This document shows positions 36,340 to 48,340 of a stretch of 64,000 nt of DNA, in pieces. The stretch is taken from NCBI GenBank assembly GCA_015179125.1, contig WHVA01000453.1, positions 1 through 64,000 on the forward strand, in the 5' to 3' direction. Position 1 is the stretch's first letter. Every line of letters begins with the position of its first letter. The notes under the pieces are model-generated. The model saw nothing but the letters and a program-made list of their open reading frames with translations, did no database searches and was not told the origin of the DNA. Position numbers and translations under genes: made by a program. This stretch comes from Gautieria morchelliformis (Eukaryota > Basidiomycota > Agaricomycetes > Gomphales > Gomphaceae).

Positions 36340-37917
36340 TTAATATATTCCGATTCTCTCATTGAGGATTCTCACTCTAGGACTAGGAAGTCCTTTAGTG
36401 AGAAGATCGGCTAGCATGTGTTCCGTTGGTAGGTACACAAGCTTAATTTCTTCATCTTCGACTATATCTCGGATGAAATATAATCTAATGTCGAAATGCT
36501 TGGTCCTCGTGTGTTGTTGAGTGCCATAAACAATGGAAATGGCTGATTGATTGTCTGAATAAAGTTTGATGGGACAATTCAGCGGTTGGAACACTTCAGA
36601 AATAAAGTGGCGCATCCATAAGGCTTCTTTGCTCGCATGAGTCAGGGCAACGAATTCGGCTTCAGTTGATGATAGGGCTACTATGGATTGTTTTTGACAA
36701 CTCCATGATACTGTCCCTCCATCAATCTGAAAAATATAAGCCGAGTATGAGTGCCTGTGCTCTTGTGAAGCCCAATCCGCATCTGAATACCCAATGAGGC
36801 CGTCTCGATTCTTCCCAAGTGTCAATTTGTAGTCCATCGTGCCTTTTAGATATTTAAAGACACGTTTGACTGCATGCCAATGCGTTGGACCTGGGTTTTC
36901 GAGGAATTGAGAAAGTAATGACACTGCAAATGCAATGTCCGGTCAAGTGGCTACTGCTGCCCACATCAATGATCCTATCGCTTGTCTGTATGGAATTCTT
37001 GACATCTTCTGTTTGTCTTCATCTGTGGAAGGGCATTGGTCCCTGGATAATTTGACGGCTGGGTCGAGAGGTGTGGAAAATGTTTTGGCATCATCCAGAT
37101 TGAATTTTTTGATGATTTTCTGGATGTATGCGGCTTGTGATATTGCAATCGATTTGTTATTCCAATCTCTTTCGATTTTGAGGTTCAAAAGCCAGTGAAT
37201 CTCGCCTAGATCTTTCATACTGAAGATCTGGGCAAGGTCATGCTTTACCCCATCGAGGATTGGTTGACTCTCAGCTGTGATAGTGAGGTCGTCTACTGCC
37301 GTTGCAATAATCGCATGCCCTCTCGGTCCACGTCTGCAAAATACAGCTCCATCCGAAGCTGATTTAGTGAATCCTAGTTTGAGAAATTCACCACTCAGAC
37401 GTTTGTACCATTCCCTTCCAGACTGTTTGAGGCCGTAAAGGGCTTTCTTCAGCAGGAGGACATCATCTTTGTCTCTGGTCTCATATCCATACGGCTGTCT
37501 CATGTAAATAGGTTCTGGCAGTGTAGCATTCAAATACGCACTGTCCACATCCATTTGGTGAATAGGCCAGTTGTTCCTGGCAGCAATGGCACATATAATC
37601 CGTAAGGAAGTCATCCGAGCAACAGGTGCATAGGTTTCATTATAGTCGACTCCAAAACTTTGTGTAAAGCCTTGGGCGACCATCCTCGATCTAGGTGTAA
37701 TGGGTTCACCTTCTGGATTGCGTTTCCAGAGGAATACCCATCTATTTCCGACAATATTTGCTCCAGGAGGTGGTTTAACCACTTCCCATACACCTTTGTC
37801 GAGTAGCACCTTGTACTCTTTATCCATCGATGCTTTCCACATAGGATCATTTATGGCTTCATCTGCATTGCTAGGCTCAGTCTGATTCAAATCCGGCAGC
37901 ACATTATTGATGCCGTC
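36340..37917 (-). pseudogene. Copia A-prime RT and RNase H, one nonsense change
   Basis: Minus strand, closely similar to the C-terminal third of the copia A polyprotein. 37917-36943 carries WVFLWKRNPEGEPI, RT motif A (QMDVDSAYLNATL), the catalytic VDDLTI at about 37285 and the YRQAIGSLMWAAVAT block. A TGA (plus-strand TCA, 36943-36945) interrupts it exactly where copia A has CGA in RPDIAFAV. The frame then stays open to its normal end at 36340 through RNase H (YSDADWA, STEAEFVAL, YSDNQSAI). Everything upstream, from Gag to integrase, has been removed by the junction with the gypsy H LTR at 37918. Confidence 0.92.
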
Positions 37918-38474
37918 TGTTACGATACGATCCGTCGTAAGGTTGACCGAGGTCGGGGACGAAACCCGAGTCAAGGTCCGAGGTTACAGGGCGAGGTTTG
38001 GATGGGGAAGTCGGAGAGGGACTTGGCTTCAGCTTATGTGCTGCGCCGAACCTACGCACGAGTCCCAACTTCGGAGGTAAACGAATAAGAGGCGAGGTTC
38101 TAGCTTAAGAGGCGAGGCGTAGAAACTAGCTAGGGATCGAAGGGACACGATAGTTGATTTTCAGACTGAGGAGTAGGAATGCATACAAGGGGGTTATATA
38201 CGGACGAGGTGCAAGTCAGGGGCGAACAGATTAGTGGAGGTCAGGGCGAGGTCAGGAGACCGAGGTCAGGGCGAGGTAATATACGAATGATGCGTGATGG
38301 AGCGGAATCAGTAACTAAGGGGGATACGGGCATGGGATCAAGGTCGGATATGAGTTCAAGCTCGGGCTCGGGCGCGGATAAGTATCATATGTACTCGGGC
38401 ACGGATATCACAAGGCTTGGGGCTCGGAAGAAGGTTCTACCGGTAAGTAGCCGGCCAAAGGCCGGGTCCTTACA
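37918..38474 (-). mobile_element. Gypsy H 3' LTR
   Basis: 557 bp; minus-strand TGTAAGGACCCGG...ATCGTAACA. It is preceded on the minus strand by a purine tract (AAGGGGGGAATAC, 38475-38487), the standard second-strand primer of LTR elements. That identifies it as the 3' LTR of a minus-strand gypsy whose internal sequence lies to the right. It interrupts the copia A-prime coding region at 37917. Confidence 0.85.
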
Positions 38475-38487
38475 GTATTCCCCCCTT
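38475..38487 (-). promoter_or_regulatory. Gypsy H polypurine tract
   Basis: Minus-strand AAGGGGGGAATAC directly abuts the TGTAAGG start of the LTR, as expected for the plus-strand primer of reverse transcription. Confidence 0.75.
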
Positions 38488-38647
38488 ATGGCCGAGACCC
38501 TCGAGGCCGTAATGTGAACAAGGTTCGCCTATCCTTGAATCTAGATCTCGGTCCGATGTTAAGTAGCCGGAAAGGCGAAGCTTAAATCGTAGCCGAGGTT
38601 GGATAAAAGGGTGGGTAGGAAGGCAGCGAACCCCATTGCCAACTAAT

Positions 38648-39788
38648 ATGGTGCGCCCTCAAGCCCTCTTCAGCTCAGCCGTCGACGAGAACAGCGTGAA
38701 CAACGCGTTCGACCAGACTTTGTTGTCTGAGGAGAACGGAGCCTCGGGCGAGGTTACGCCCGAGGATCGACCCGAGGTTGGCACATTGCCAATTGATGAG
38801 ACGGGGGCCATCGACATGCGGCAGCCGTGGCAGGAAGGACCGAGTGGAAAGAAGGTGAGTACCGTAGTTGTCTAATCATGGGCGCTGCTGATTTGTCTAG
38901 TATAAACGCATGTTATTCTCCTACCACCCGACCGACTTGTCCCTATACGGGTACAAGCTCGCCGACGGGGGACCTCGCGAGTGGCAGCTCGCGACCAAGG
39001 CCGAGGCGAGGTGCGCGCGCTGCGAAGAGCGCGACTATACGTGCCTTCAGGCCGTTAGTCTCGACTTCGGCCTCGCCGACCAGGGTGCTTGCGTGTGGTG
39101 CAGGACCCGTTCCTTGGGTTGTAGTATCGCCCAAGGTCGCCGCAGCAAGGCAACCCCAGGCAAGGGTCAGGCGGGTACCGCGAGCAAGAAGCGAGCGAGG
39201 AGCGAGGAGGCCGAGGATGGACCGAGGCCGAGGAAAGAGGCCAAGGTTCAGGACGAAGTTGCAGAGGATGACGACTCGAGTGATTGGGTCGAGAGGAACC
39301 TCGAGATGAGGGTAGAGCGGATGGAAGCGAGGTTGAGCGAGGAGAAGGGTAAGGAGACTGGGGAAGTGAGGCAGCGTGAGGAGACAGAGGTCGGGGAAGC
39401 GAGGCAGACTGAGGGGGAGGAAACCGAGGTTGGAGGTCGGAGGGCGAAAAAGGACAAGAAGACGAAAAGATCGGAGCGAAGTGCGGAGATGAGGGAGTTG
39501 ATAGCGGCGGTGAGGGATGTGGGACAGAAGGTTGGCGAGGTTGGGGAGAGGGTGTGCGAGTTGCTAGGGGAGTTTAGGGCTGCGAATGACAGGATGAACA
39601 GGGCGGATGTGGAGTTCATGAGGATAAGGAGGAGGCGGAATTATTTGAAGCGGATGCAGGGGGCGAGGGACTTGGCAGATCATGGGGGACATGGGGGTCT
39701 GGTGGAGCGAAGTAGTAGTAGTAATGAGGAGGAGTCAGGTGAGGGTAGCGAGGGGAGCGAGGGAGAGGATATGAGGATGGTGGAGTGA
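38648..39788 (+). CDS. Antisense zinc-cluster-like protein gene within gypsy H (2 exons)
   Basis: Two exons on the plus strand, opposite to the host element: 38648-38854 and 38901-39788. The 46-bp intron (38855-38900) begins GTGAGT, has CTAAT as possible branch site and ends TTTGTCTAG; splicing is in phase 0 and gives about 364 residues. Met 38648 is the first ATG of the open frame. Residues about 95-130 hold CARCEERDYTC, a 15-residue linker and CVWCRTRSLGC, i.e. CX2CX6C-X15-CX2CX6C. This is the spacing of fungal Zn2Cys6 DNA-binding clusters except for a longer linker. Basic patches (KKRARSEE, RRAKKDKKTKR) could be nuclear signals. The middle has a charged coiled-coil-like helix and the C-terminus is Ser/Glu-rich. 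It lies between the chromodomain end of pol and the purine tract. I infer a nuclear, possibly regulatory, element-encoded accessory protein; the function is unproven. Confidence 0.6.
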
Positions 39789-39846
39789 ACTAGTAAATGG
39801 AATAATAGGCTTTTCTTGGTTTTTTATCGATTTTTTGTTGTTCGAT

Positions 39847-39873
39847 TGCGAGGGTTTTTTTTTTTTTTTTTTT
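39847..39873. repeat. Long T run
   Basis: A run of more than 20 T on the plus strand lies between the antisense gene and the chromodomain end of pol. It could be the 3' end region of the antisense transcript or slippage. Confidence 0.8.
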
Positions 39874-39915
39874 TTTTTAACTACTGGGGTCATGGGGGTT
39901 AACAAAGGAAAATGA

Positions 39916-40150
39916 TCATAGAGCAGTCAAAGGGCCGGGCTTGCCCGGGTAAGAGTCATGGAAATCCGTGACCAGCTCTGAGGCATGATCAAGCTCGGAA
40001 GCGAGGATCCACGAGGTTTCTTCGTCGGTACCTTCGTAACCAGTCCACCTAACAAGGTAGAGTAATTTGCAGCTCTTGCGTCTATTATCGATCTTCGAGT
40101 CGAGGATTTCGGAAACCTCGAACTCGGTCAGCGCCAGCTTCGGGGCGCCT
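39916..40150 (-). pseudogene. Gypsy H integrase tail with chromodomain
   Basis: Minus-strand open stretch of about 78 codons ending in TGA at 39918-39916. It reads FEVSEILDSKID, then KLLYLVRWTGYEGTDEETSW and LASELDHASELV: a chromodomain with its aromatic and acidic pattern, fused to the integrase C-terminus as in chromoviruses. Chromodomains bind methylated histone tails and guide integration. Upstream pol is missing beyond about 40150, where similarity ends. Its stop, the antisense gene, the purine tract and the LTR follow in order. Confidence 0.85.
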
Positions 40151-43949: not shown

Positions 43950-46764
43950 ATGAACAACGTTGAGGGCAACGCCGAGGACAACGTTCAAGGCAACGTGACG
44001 GCACTGTAAGTCCACGATCACTTCTCTAGTGAGCCAACTGTTCACTCTACCCGTTCACTCTCCACCCCGAAGTACTCCTGCAGCAATAAGGGCGATCAGT
44101 GTTACAGGAAAGACTCTTTCGTTTGCGCTGTCTATTGTATACTGACTCTATGCGATCGACAACAGACCTGAAATGCGATCACCTTCCCAATGTGGGACTG
44201 TTCTGCAAACGTCCTGGTAACTACTACGTAAAACTCTTTCTCGATAAGGATGTCAAGAAAACCGCGGTAGCTGCGAGAGGCAATACTGCCTCGTGGAATG
44301 AGACACTCTATTTGTGCGTTTAATTCCAGTGTTATTACCTTCCCGCGACTTGGATCCATGCCCAGCAAAGACTTGCATGGGTCCTCCGTATTACACATCG
44401 AAGTCTACGGGCATCGTATCTTTACACGTGATGAATGCATCGGCTTTGCAAAGGCGAGGATTGAGATACTGGTTGCAGAGGGAGCAACAGGAGGTCAGTC
44501 CTCGTCGCTCGACGATTGAGTGCACACCTAATCATCGAACACAGCAGCCGTTCCTCGCACTCTGCACAAATCCGATAAGGCAGGGAACATGCACAAGGTT
44601 CAGACTGTCGTAGAGTTCACTCTCACCTCTTTCAAGACGTCCGATGAGGCGCAGGAGCCTGAGTTGAGCAAAGCAGTCAACGAAGCGACAGCCGCGGTCG
44701 ATAATATGAACCCCCCGCCATCCCTGCCTATTGGTCCAGGGAATGTGGTCGACTGCGCCACTTCCATCACCAATACTGCCATCTCGATAACGTCGGCTTG
44801 GGGCTCCCTCTTGGACAATATCAGGCTGTTTACCGAGATTGTAGATAAGGCCTCAGAGGTATAGTTCAAACGCCGGGGGTCTCCCAGGTCATCCGATTGA
44901 CACGGTGTGCTTTGATTCTAGATCCATCCTTATGCGAAAGCGGCATGGTCTATTCTGTCTCTTGCACACAAGGTATGTCTGACATCCACCAGTCGGATAG
45001 ATATAGCTGACATCTGGGGTTGACTCTATTTAGACGATCATTGATCAGATGGACCGGGACGATAGCATCCATGGTCTTGCGAAGATTATTGGGGACACAT
45101 ATGCATTCGTCAACTGGCGGAGCCGTTGAAGAAAATTGAATCGCAGAAGCCAATTATCTTAGCCTTGGCGCAACAGACGTTAGAGTGCAGCTACTTTGTC
45201 CGCGCCTACGCAAAAACAGAGGGCTTTTGTATGTTGGACCCACTGTCAGGGGGCCACAGCTGATGACCATCATTCAGGGAAAAGAACCGCGAAAAATCTA
45301 GTGTCGGATGTCGACAGCAAGATCAAACAATACCAGGAATCTTTCGACACACTCCAGTTGGAGTCGCAACGACTTGGCGTGATTCATACTGAAATCATGT
45401 TACAACGTGTTGAAAGCGCTGTACATCGTGTTGAAATCACTGTACTACGGGTTCTGAATGTTGTCGAGGAAATCGGCGAGTTTTCTGATTTTGCGGCCTT
45501 TGCCCAGGCTAATACACTTTGCAACCAGCCGGGGATGTTCAACTTAATGACATGCCCTACGCAAATGGAGCTGGTTTCGATCCTGAAAAAGGATGTCTTC
45601 GGGATACTCGGGAGACAGTTCTTGCGGAGATCTGGGAGTGGGCCAACCAGGAGAGCGAGGACGCCCCACGGATATCTTTCTTGAACGATGTCGCGGGTGC
45701 TGGCAAGTCTACCGTCGCCCACGAGGTCGCTAAGCGGTTTAGTAACATCAAACGACTCGGGTTGTCGTACTTTTTTGACCGGGCTCTTCAGGTACAGCGA
45801 TCCCCCGAGAATGTCTTTAGCACGATTGCTCGTGATCTGGCTGATCTGGATCCACAACGAAAAGCATCGTTGCTGAAAGTGGTCGGGGAGCAGAAATCAC
45901 TTCGGACCACACGCGTACCTCGTGAGCAGTTCCAAAAGTTCATTCTGGACCCCTCCAAGGACCTGACGGCCGTTGGACCGAGCGTGATCGTTATTGATGC
46001 ATTGGATAAGAGCGGAGATGAGAAATCTCGCCATGGTCTTTTGTCTGTTCTTAGCAACGAAGCTGCAAAACTGCCGTCCAATTTTCGTGTTCTAATCACT
46101 TCCCGTGCCGAAGAAGACATACAGGGCGCTCTTAGGAAGAAGCACGTTCTTTCCAGGTCCATAAGGCAGAGTGACCCCAACCCCGATGAGGACATTTCCC
46201 TCTTTGTGCAAGCCCAACTGAGTAACATTCCGGCCCTCGACCAGAAATGGCCCAACCAAGCTTGGTGTACATTTTTAGTCGAGAAATCGGAAGGCCTATT
46301 TCAATGGGCATCCACTGCTTGTCTATTTATAAAAGGAGATGGCTTGAAGGGTTCAGATCCTGTCGAGCAACTTGATATCCTTTTGGCATCGCAGAACATG
46401 CACCTTGGATGGGCTGTATCATACAATACTCACGCAGTTATTTGGGCAGGGGGATAACGATAGCGTTGTGTGTCGATTCCAATCGGTCATGGGCTGCTTA
46501 CTCGCGGCCAAAGAGCCCCTGTCTATATCTGCCCTCCAGAAGTTGCACAACGACGGATCGGGAAATGCGGTGGATCTGATGGTTAGGCCAATGGGATCTC
46601 TGTTGAGCGATGTCACCCAAACATCTGACCCAATTCGTCTGCTACACACGTCTTTTCGTGACTTCTTGACAGATCGCGACCGGAGTGGACCATACTACAT
46701 CGACACATCTTTACACCAAGACCGCTTTGCGCGCTCATCCTTGCGCGTGATGAAGGATGAACTT
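43950..46764 (+). pseudogene. C2-NACHT NLR-type protein gene, frameshifted and truncated
   Basis: Plus-strand remains of a fungal NLR. A C2-like domain (LPNVGLFCKRPGNYYVKLFL, about 44186-44500) is followed by a helical region (about 44640-45420: DNMNPPPSLPIGPGN, IHPYAKAAWSIL, DRDDSIHGLAKI, LVSDVDSKIKQY). The NACHT NTPase follows: Walker A GAGKST at about 45697, Walker B VIVIDALD at about 45988, sensor region VLITSRAEEDI, then winged-helix sequences (VEKSEGLFQWAS, LHTSFRDFLTDRDRS). Met 43950 with a GT-AG intron 44006-44107 may be the start. Frameshifts lie at about 45117 (extra bases) and 46408 (one inserted G). One shift near 45520 may instead be a spliced GC-AG intron. At 46765 the sequence switches to a LINE on the other strand, so the sensor repeats are gone. 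Such proteins serve in fungal self/non-self and immune responses; this copy is dead. Confidence 0.8.
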
Positions 46765-48182
46765 TGTCGCTGCTCCCATGTCCACGGTGTGTCGTTGGGG
46801 AAATATTTATACGTTCCTTCTGGGTCTGTTCTCTCGATGGCTTGGCACGCGGCTGTGAACGCTGGGCACGTGCGATCCCATGACGCGTGTCCGTTTTGGT
46901 CGCAGTTTACGCATCGGTATCGAGTCGGGTCTGTTTCCTCGCACTCTGCCGTTTTGTGCCCCTTTCCGCAAGTCCCGCATACCTCCTCGCTCCTGCATTC
47001 CGCCGCCATGTGTCGTGCATTTTGTCTTTGGCATTTTAGACACCTCCTGGGTTCTCTTTTCATTCGTCTCGCCCAGGTGCGTTTTCCTGCTATTATCAGC
47101 CTGTCCCGTATACTCTGATTTGCAGCTTCTATTGTGGAGAACTTAGCTATTAGGTGCGCTGAGCGCTGGCCTTGGGTTCTCCTGCTCGCTGGTTTTATCC
47201 ATCTGGTCGACAGCAGGGTATCGCTGGGTAGCCTGGAGTCTCTTTCAATTTTCTTGAGTTCTCCCATCGCTTCTGGTGAGTGCGTTAGTGGGACGTATTC
47301 TACTAAAACTGATGCTGCTCTGTCTTTGACCACAGACGTCCCGCCTAGTTTGTCTACGAAGCGCGCTTTGTTGGTCTGGACCCACTTGGCTGCAGCCGGT
47401 TTGTTTAATTCGTAGACTATCCCTCTGTTGGCCAGGATCTTGGCCCCTACGAAGCTGATGTCCTCGAGCGAGTTCGGCTCTCCAAGTTGTTCTAGCGCTT
47501 CGTTGGCCTTTTCAACCAGCTCTCTTTCGGTGAGTTCCCCCAATGCGTTGTGCTCGGCTCTCGGGTCTCTGTCTATCAGCAGCTGGCGCTCTCTGGCCCT
47601 GGCCCTTGCCAGGTTGCTCGGATGTGATAGAGGGACGTTACCTTTGAGGGCTGCCGCGTATGTAGCGCCTTCCGCTGTCGCCTCCTCTCTGACTTCCTCT
47701 CTTAGCTCTACTCTGGCTCTGTGTACACTGCAGATGTCCTCCACCGCCATGTTTGCCTCGTCTGCTGCGGTCCTCGCGGTGTCTGCGATGCCGCGCATGG
47801 CGTCGATGACCGCGTCGACTTTTGTGAAGACGGGCGCTAAGGTCTTTTCGACGTGTTGAAGCAGCACGTTGCTCGCTTCTCTGGCTGCCTCTTCGGTGAG
47901 TAGTATTGCTACTGCTCTGGCTCCCTCCTCGAGTGTTTTGCTGGAGGAGCTGTGGGCGAGGGAAAGGAGGACGTAGCTGAGCTGGTCGGCGGTGGCCAGG
48001 TTCTCCCTTGCGAGGGATCCGTGCTTGTCGAGGAATGTCCGAGCTTGGTCTTTGGTGCGTACTGAGGCGTGAGGATCTGCTAGAAGGTCTGCTTTGCTTT
48101 TGCTGCCTGTTTGCTGGCTGCTGGCCCTTGTGCGCAGTGACGTTGTCGCTGGGGCTGTTTGGGCTTCCGCGCTGGCTGGCAT
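46695..48182 (-). CDS. LINE ORF1 protein, C-terminus replaced by NLR antisense codons
   Basis: A 495-codon open frame from Met 48182. It has an N-terminal Ser/Thr-rich part, a helical region (LSYVLLSLAHSSSSKTLEEGARAV), the conserved ATYAAALKGNVPLSHPSN block, an RRM-like stretch (FVGAKILANRGIVYEL) and three cysteine-rich knuckles near residues 380-440 (CLKCQRQNARHMAAEC, CGTCGKGHKTAEC, CVNCDQNGHASWDRTC). The last 23 or so codons after PWTWEQ read through the antisense of the NLR. ORF1 proteins of Tad-like LINEs bind the element RNA. The frame is intact up to the junction, unlike the ORF1 at 54432-56192. Confidence 0.85.
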   Translation of the reverse strand: MPASAEAQTAPATTSLRTRASSQQTGSKSKADLLADPHASVRTKDQARTFLDKHGSLARENLATADQLSYVLLSLAHSSSSKTLEEGARAVAILLTEEAAREASNVLLQHVEKTLAPVFTKVDAVIDAMRGIADTARTAADEANMAVEDICSVHRARVELREEVREEATAEGATYAAALKGNVPLSHPSNLARARARERQLLIDRDPRAEHNALGELTERELVEKANEALEQLGEPNSLEDISFVGAKILANRGIVYELNKPAAAKWVQTNKARFVDKLGGTSVVKDRAASVLVEYVPLTHSPEAMGELKKIERDSRLPSDTLLSTRWIKPASRRTQGQRSAHLIAKFSTIEAANQSIRDRLIIAGKRTWARRMKREPRRCLKCQRQNARHMAAECRSEEVCGTCGKGHKTAECEETDPTRYRCVNCDQNGHASWDRTCPAFTAACQAIERTDPEGTYKYFPNDTPWTWEQRQSSSFITRKDERAKRSWCKDVSM

Positions 48183-48340
48183 GCCCTTTTTTGTCTTTTT
48201 GTTAGTGCGGGCTTTCAGGCTGTTTGTTAGTGCGGGCTTTCAGGCTGTTATTATCGACAGTCTGGGATGCACTATCTATCGTAGAAGTGTGTGTGTGTGT
48301 GGGATTTGGGTTTTTTATAGTATCGATGGTGATGGTAGGC
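46765..48340 (-). mobile_element. LINE 5' end with ORF1 only
   Basis: Minus-strand 5' region of a LINE related to that at 49059-56200. The 5' leader (about 48340-48183) shares a GT-rich stretch and GCGTGAGAA with the other copy. ORF1 follows and the element stops inside it at about 46765, against the NLR. ORF2 and poly(A) are absent. This is the opposite of normal 5' truncation, so a later deletion or recombination is likely. Confidence 0.8.

Follow-up and report, generated by a model that had tools for sequence, protein, structure and literature searches.

Antisense genes in LTR elements

Antisense genes in LTR elements are already known, mostly from plants among the cases in the literature compared here, and further examples come from Botrytis, which is an ascomycete, and from the vertebrate retrovirus HTLV-1, whose antisense product HBZ forms a coiled-coil dimer and is translated, for the most part, from a first exon that lies within the LTR. 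In plant Ty3/gypsy elements, an antisense additional ORF between pol and the 3' LTR is designated aORF-3R and is represented by gene23 of Grande, RIRE2, ORF4/TRP28 of Retand and PvRetro13, as described in PMC7264820 and PMC11963269. According to these sources, gene23 is nuclear and has its own promoter (PMC7264820), and antisense ORFs occur in all Retand clusters studied, 97% with a TRP28 domain that is predicted to bind DNA (PMC11963269). In the Boty-like LTR elements of Botrytis cinerea, the antisense gene brtn (Zhao 2011, as cited in PMC8365987) is described as lying between pol and the 3' LTR (PMC7264820). HBZ is described as the product of an antisense, spliced transcript that starts in the 3' LTR and as an inhibitor of Tax-driven transcription (PMC1459196), as nuclear (PMC11963269) and as a bZIP factor (PMC3185765).

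The window, i.e., the whole stretch of 64,000 nucleotides of Gautieria morchelliformis DNA analyzed in this study, holds on its minus strand the 3' end of a Ty3/gypsy element of the chromodomain type, in which a plus-strand gene lies between pol and the 3' LTR. This gene resembles the plant aORF-3R genes, as they are portrayed in PMC7264820 and PMC11963269, in position, orientation, presence in most copies and a proposed nuclear or DNA-binding role. It differs from them in that the element is a chromovirus, whereas Retand belongs to a non-chromovirus lineage, in that its product has a cysteine cluster and a coiled coil with no Pfam family above the cut-off, and in that it contains a conserved spliceosomal intron, whereas introns are not mentioned in the consulted text of PMC11963269. 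What the gene shares with brtn, as far as the descriptions of the latter go, is antisense orientation within an LTR element of a fungus. The comparison with HBZ, which implies no homology, covers antisense orientation as well as splicing, nuclear location and a coiled coil, all three of which are predicted here; in contrast to the bZIP of HBZ, the present protein has a cysteine cluster, and a search for a bZIP domain in exon 2 of 16 members gave no match. The protein is best read as a putative accessory DNA-binding or chromatin regulator comparable with HBZ, Grande gene23, Retand TRP28 and Boty brtn. A literature search of titles and abstract openings, covering few subscription journals, showed no fungal LTR element with a zinc-cluster-like antisense gene that is spliced, and none in which such a gene combines a cysteine cluster with a conserved spliceosomal intron.

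The host element and its copies

The first-pass annotation of the window had described a gene carried by a gypsy element, with the pol stop at 39918–39916 on the minus strand and the polypurine tract and 3' LTR together at 38487–37918. The pol stop stood, and the latter boundary was refined to an LTR at 37918–38474 (minus strand, TG...CA) and a polypurine side, C-rich on the plus strand, at approximately 38480–38487. The LTR gave at least 40 scored matches in the genome among 1100 candidates, and two copies with a complete layout carry the same LTR type, 96.6% identical, at their far end. The insertion site is a copia pol (36943–37983, minus strand; RVT_2, E 2.8e-66), the frame of which continues into the gypsy LTR at 37918. 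On the other side of the antisense gene, a 3' region common to the convergent gene and pol (39789–39915) is followed by the pol C-terminus with its chromodomain (39916–40127, minus strand), which comprises the last approximately 70 codons (40127–39919) and the stop. The chromodomain tail matches a complete-layout copy as far as approximately 40127, where the window copy breaks off; because it is truncated in pol, this copy would not be capable of autonomous movement. The antisense gene is intact despite this truncation, and its exon 2 protein is 100% identical (rounded) to that of two other loci.

The complete layout LTR-gag-pol-antisense gene-LTR was found at two loci, C182 and C360. Their gag matches Retrotrans_gag, with the zinc knuckle below its cut-off, and their pol contains reverse transcriptase, RNase H, integrase and chromodomain in that order, which, together with the LTRs and the short target duplication, are the characteristics of a Ty3/gypsy chromovirus; the chromo domain PF00385 was found in the pol of locus L039. 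The frames of the two complete copies are not all in one piece, since pol is split in two at one locus and gag is shorter at the other. The paired LTRs are identical within each copy (0 mismatches over 562 bp) and are bordered by 5-bp target duplications, GCTGT and GACGG, and both insertions are therefore recent. With many copies and at least two recent insertions in this family, the gene, its intron signals and selection on it are readable from sequence, and direct tests become possible.

At least 133 copies of the antisense gene were scored in the genome (139 table rows), and the matched stretch is free of stops in 107 of the 139 rows and contains stops in 32. As in the aORF-3R class, the gene is thus present and, judging from its dN/dS, conserved in most copies, the count being one of elements that carry the gene, as the copies were collected by searching with the gene itself. 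In 30 loci examined with 1.5-kb flanks, including that of the window, an LTR edge lies upstream and an opposite-strand pol C-terminus lies downstream in 30/30. The first-pass annotation had considered that an absence of homologues from other copies, or homologues unlinked to LTRs, would point to a chance insertion beside a host gene; the opposite outcome was obtained. In a different chromovirus family, a relative of the gene was absent in 8/8 copies (L080–L087, from 150 rows; 1.8–2.5 kb fetched for each), all of which proved to belong to one family, suggesting that chromoviruses can do without such an antisense gene. The SH3 region of that family is 44–48% identical. A search of IMG/VR with the protein and with pol gave no relatives.

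Gene structure and intron

The gene consists of exon 1 at 38648–38854 (69 codons; ATG at 38648–38650) and exon 2 at 38901–39788 (295 codons and the stop TGA at 39786–39788), both on the plus strand, and splicing of the 46-bp intron at 38855–38900 gives a product of 69 + 295 = 364 residues. Exons, frame and splice signals were as first described, namely a plus-strand spliced gene of about 364 residues with a clean 46-bp intron. Exon 2 encodes the cysteine cluster, basic patches, a variable acidic stretch and the coiled coil, and the unspliced frame (38567–38875) stops within the intron, ahead of the cysteines.

Fifty copies, consisting of the best-scoring 30 and 20 chosen for divergence and hence a non-random sample, were aligned. 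Over the first 850 nt of exon 2, frame +0 is stop-free in 46/50 copies and each of the other five frames in 0/50. Codon position 3 is variable at 189 of 364 columns, compared with 85 and 90 of 364 for the other two positions. The spurious-frame explanation, in which a long frame arises by chance in GC-rich DNA or a host gene has been caught at a single insertion, draws on the minus-strand frames of 206 and 172 codons that overlap exon 2 and are stop-free in 29/50 and 38/50 copies, and openness alone is therefore weak evidence at this locus. The case for the gene is made instead by the codon-position pattern, dN/dS and the intron signals, and both versions of a chance origin were rejected as practically negligible in view of the many copies and the LTR and pol flanks at all 30 loci. 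The antisense gene is, from these sequence patterns, genuine, and a chance frame is excluded.

The intron begins with GTGAGT, has the branch sequence CTGAT 13 nt from its end and terminates with TAG. It is present in 50/50 copies at a length of 45–49 bp, and its signals persist in 49–50 of them: the 5' site is GTGAGT in 45, GTAAGT in two, GTGAAT in one and GCGAGT in one and is lost in one, the branch sequence is CTGAT or CTGAC exactly 13 nt from the intron end in 50/50, and the end is TAG or CAG in 50/50. Among 24 distinct introns, identity is 0.90–0.95 at the signals and averages 0.48 in the body. Because the signals were kept while the body diverged, the intron looks to be maintained by selection for splicing, and short introns of this CTRAY type fit a fungus. 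A pattern spanning the boundary of exon 1 and the intron gave 266 matches in the genome, a count of patterns rather than of copies, versus 1 for the reversed control; of three such matches fetched from outside the copy table, two were frameshifted gene copies and one was unrelated. No intron-less copy with a fused exon junction was found in the genome, and a single near-match to the fused junction was rejected as a candidate since it has no similarity to the gene. The intron may have survived because packaged sense RNA carries its reverse complement, which the spliceosome would not recognize. The intron also illustrates that a spliced gene can persist in a retroelement when it is encoded opposite to the genomic RNA.

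Selection and divergence among copies

Of the 50 aligned copies, 38 are intact and 12 are broken. The Ka/Ks comparison among copies proposed in the first-pass annotation gave a median dN/dS of approximately 0.2, i.e., 0.17–0.22 in each dS band (666 pairs from 37 distinct sequences), with single-pair values of up to 0.82 in the closest dS band and values of 1 or more in 0/556 pairs with dS above 0.05. By region, the lowest dN/dS values are those of the start of exon 2 (0.09), the helix (0.12) and the cysteine cluster (0.13), whereas the tail has the highest (0.29). These values indicate that the gene is under purifying selection across copies, which gives it the look of a functional component of the element and not of an accidental frame. 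What the sequence shows directly is the gene with its intron signals, its place in the element and the purifying selection on it, along with the conserved cysteines and the heptad pattern described below.

These results bear on the possibility that the antisense RNA, and not the protein, is what matters, by pairing with element RNA, feeding host RNA interference and so limiting copy number. Sequences of Argonaute, with 9 Piwi matches spread over 3 contigs, and of RNA-dependent RNA polymerase, with 18 matches over 5 contigs, are present in the host genome, and a role in RNA interference is raised for antisense transcripts of plant elements in PMC7264820. An RNA-only role, however, requires neither selection on the protein, as seen in dN/dS and the exon 2 frame, nor splice signals that outlast the intron body, and we consider it distinctly unlikely. 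RNA and protein roles can be compatible with each other.

Divergence is distributed unevenly along the element. Copies L038 and L022 are 98–100% identical in the LTR, the upstream region, the 3' region and the pol end, whereas their exons are 92–93% and their introns 85% identical, and CpG-type transitions account for 17 of the 79 differences of L038. On the gag-pol side, identity in three such copies is 97–100% in most 300-bp comparison windows; it drops to 92–96% in several gag and 5' LTR windows of L038, to 92% in the first window of one other copy and to 76–81% in the last window, which extends into the flank. Across 21 copies, with L025 left out, the mean dS of the gene is 0.106 versus 0.042 for the pol end, a 2.5-fold difference, and the gene value is the larger in 175 of 210 pairs. 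Copies L029, L035 and L033 also show gene divergence relative to L022, and the two halves are unequal in some copies.

Such an island, in which the gene diverges faster than its flanks, is what a gene in an arms race might display, and the Argonaute and RNA-dependent RNA polymerase sequences of the host would provide an opponent if the protein countered host silencing, by anti-RNAi or anti-heterochromatin activity, rather than controlling the element directly. Since silent sites diverge too, positive selection on the protein alone does not account for the pattern; moreover, few parts are as well conserved as the cysteine cluster and no sign of positive selection was seen, so that an anti-silencing role appears very unlikely. 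The island is likely to reflect recombination between elements, and the most economical reading is that older alleles of the gene were exchanged between co-packaged element RNAs by template switching.

The encoded protein

In Zn2Cys6 proteins, the linker is approximately 5–12 residues long and the stretch from Cys 2 to Cys 3 contains basic residues. The antisense protein contains the cluster CX2CX6C-X15-CX2CX6C at residues 107–143 (39012–39122, plus strand), and each of the six cysteines is kept in 37 or 38 of the 38 intact copies. It thus shares with the fungal Zn2Cys6 factors (PF00172) six cysteines in two CX2CX6C halves and a coiled coil after the cluster, whereas it differs from them in its linker of 15 residues, in having EERDYT between Cys 2 and Cys 3 instead of a basic loop, and in its sub-threshold score. 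One host Zn_clus match has a linker of 16 residues, and linker length alone therefore does not exclude the protein from Zn2Cys6. In profile searches, the 55-residue cysteine stretch of the window copy scored 16.2 bits against Zn_clus, below the 21-bit Pfam cut-off, and the same stretch gave a Zn_clus match in 9 of 11 related members (best E 0.0015). With whole exon 2, Pfam gave no domain for the window copy and Zn_clus in only 1 of 16 members (E 0.29). An hhalign comparison with seven host Zn_clus domains, based on shallow profiles, gave a probability of 2%, and sequences of solved structures (PDB) gave no significant match (best E 0.69 and 4.3). AlphaFold without an alignment assigned the first 100 residues of exon 2 a mean pLDDT of 47.5, with blocks of 53–69 over residues 31–70, and in a longer single-sequence model the blocks over these first 100 residues were 29–39. 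Of the zinc-cluster-like character first ascribed to the protein, the spacing of the six cysteines thus holds, while membership in Zn2Cys6 is not borne out, and a zinc cluster identity is a lead only.

The coiled-coil-like middle and the basic patches noted at first reading were both recovered. AlphaFold without an alignment predicted a single long helix at exon 2 residues 186–261, with pLDDT blocks of 80–96 over residues 191–260, and the heptad pattern of its core (residues 204–250 of exon 2; 39510–39650, plus strand) was reached by 0 of 5000 shuffled sequences. Four basic patches, KKRAR, RPRK, KKDKKTKR and RIRRRR, are seen in the protein sequence. The basic patches, the long predicted coiled coil and the retention of the gene alongside pol could also be expected of a factor of the replication cycle, serving in nuclear import of the integration complex, as a nucleic-acid chaperone or as an aid to chromodomain-guided integration. 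Nothing in the data ties the antisense protein to particles or integrase, however, and a separate antisense promoter would be an odd route to a particle component; such a role is possible but doubtful.

Candidate promoter and proposed function

The polypurine side and the region upstream of the gene extend over 38475–38647 (plus strand). A TATA-like sequence, GATAAAA, is located at 38602, 46 bp 5' of the ATG, and AGATAAAAGG or GGATAAAAGG occupies this site in 10/10 copies compared; GATAAAA is a candidate promoter element of the antisense gene. The LTR and the upstream region have in common an 11-bp motif, TAAGTAGCCGG, which was chosen after the sequences had been looked at and was equaled in 6 of 500 shuffles. 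As a hint that is statistically weak, TAAGTAGCCGG would suit a binding site. The distinct LTR type in L069 was considered as a sign of an LTR-independent promoter and rejected, because the upstream side of that copy is partly another repeat. This repeat (L069:300–548, corresponding to C114:152919–153167) has many copies of 96–98% identity and lies upstream of a gene copy from which the LTR is missing.

A possible mechanism is proposed for the element-encoded regulator, whose transcription, splicing in cells, nuclear location, binding of zinc and DNA, and regulatory activity we infer from sequence features. Transcription towards pol could be driven either by the 3' LTR or by an internal promoter immediately adjacent to it within the element. 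The antisense transcript would then be spliced once to encode the nuclear protein of 364 residues, which may dimerize through its coiled coil, and the six-cysteine module would probably bind zinc and DNA or chromatin. The protein could then act in trans, most likely in feedback regulation of element transcription at the LTR and the upstream region. We give about an even chance to this overall reading of the antisense gene as an accessory gene for a trans-acting feedback regulator.

A more far-reaching version, which is tentative and in our estimation rather unlikely, sees in the element a fungal chromovirus that encodes an HBZ-like antisense regulator. Since the zinc module would be formed only after splicing, packaged RNA would never yield the protein, whose only source would be the antisense transcripts that integrated copies produce in the nucleus, and the protein could serve as a built-in sensor of integrated copy number. 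The shuffling of alleles between near-identical elements would then generate regulator types, and these may determine which elements are under mutual control.

Neighboring sequences

Two further frames were noted elsewhere in the window. The minus-strand frame at 46695–48239 has 514 codons with CCHC-like knuckles near its end and no Pfam match at E 0.001; from its sequence, it looks like a LINE ORF1. At 45513–46457 on the plus strand, there is a fragment of a NACHT/nephrocystin-3-type NTPase (PF24883, E 5.9e-22).
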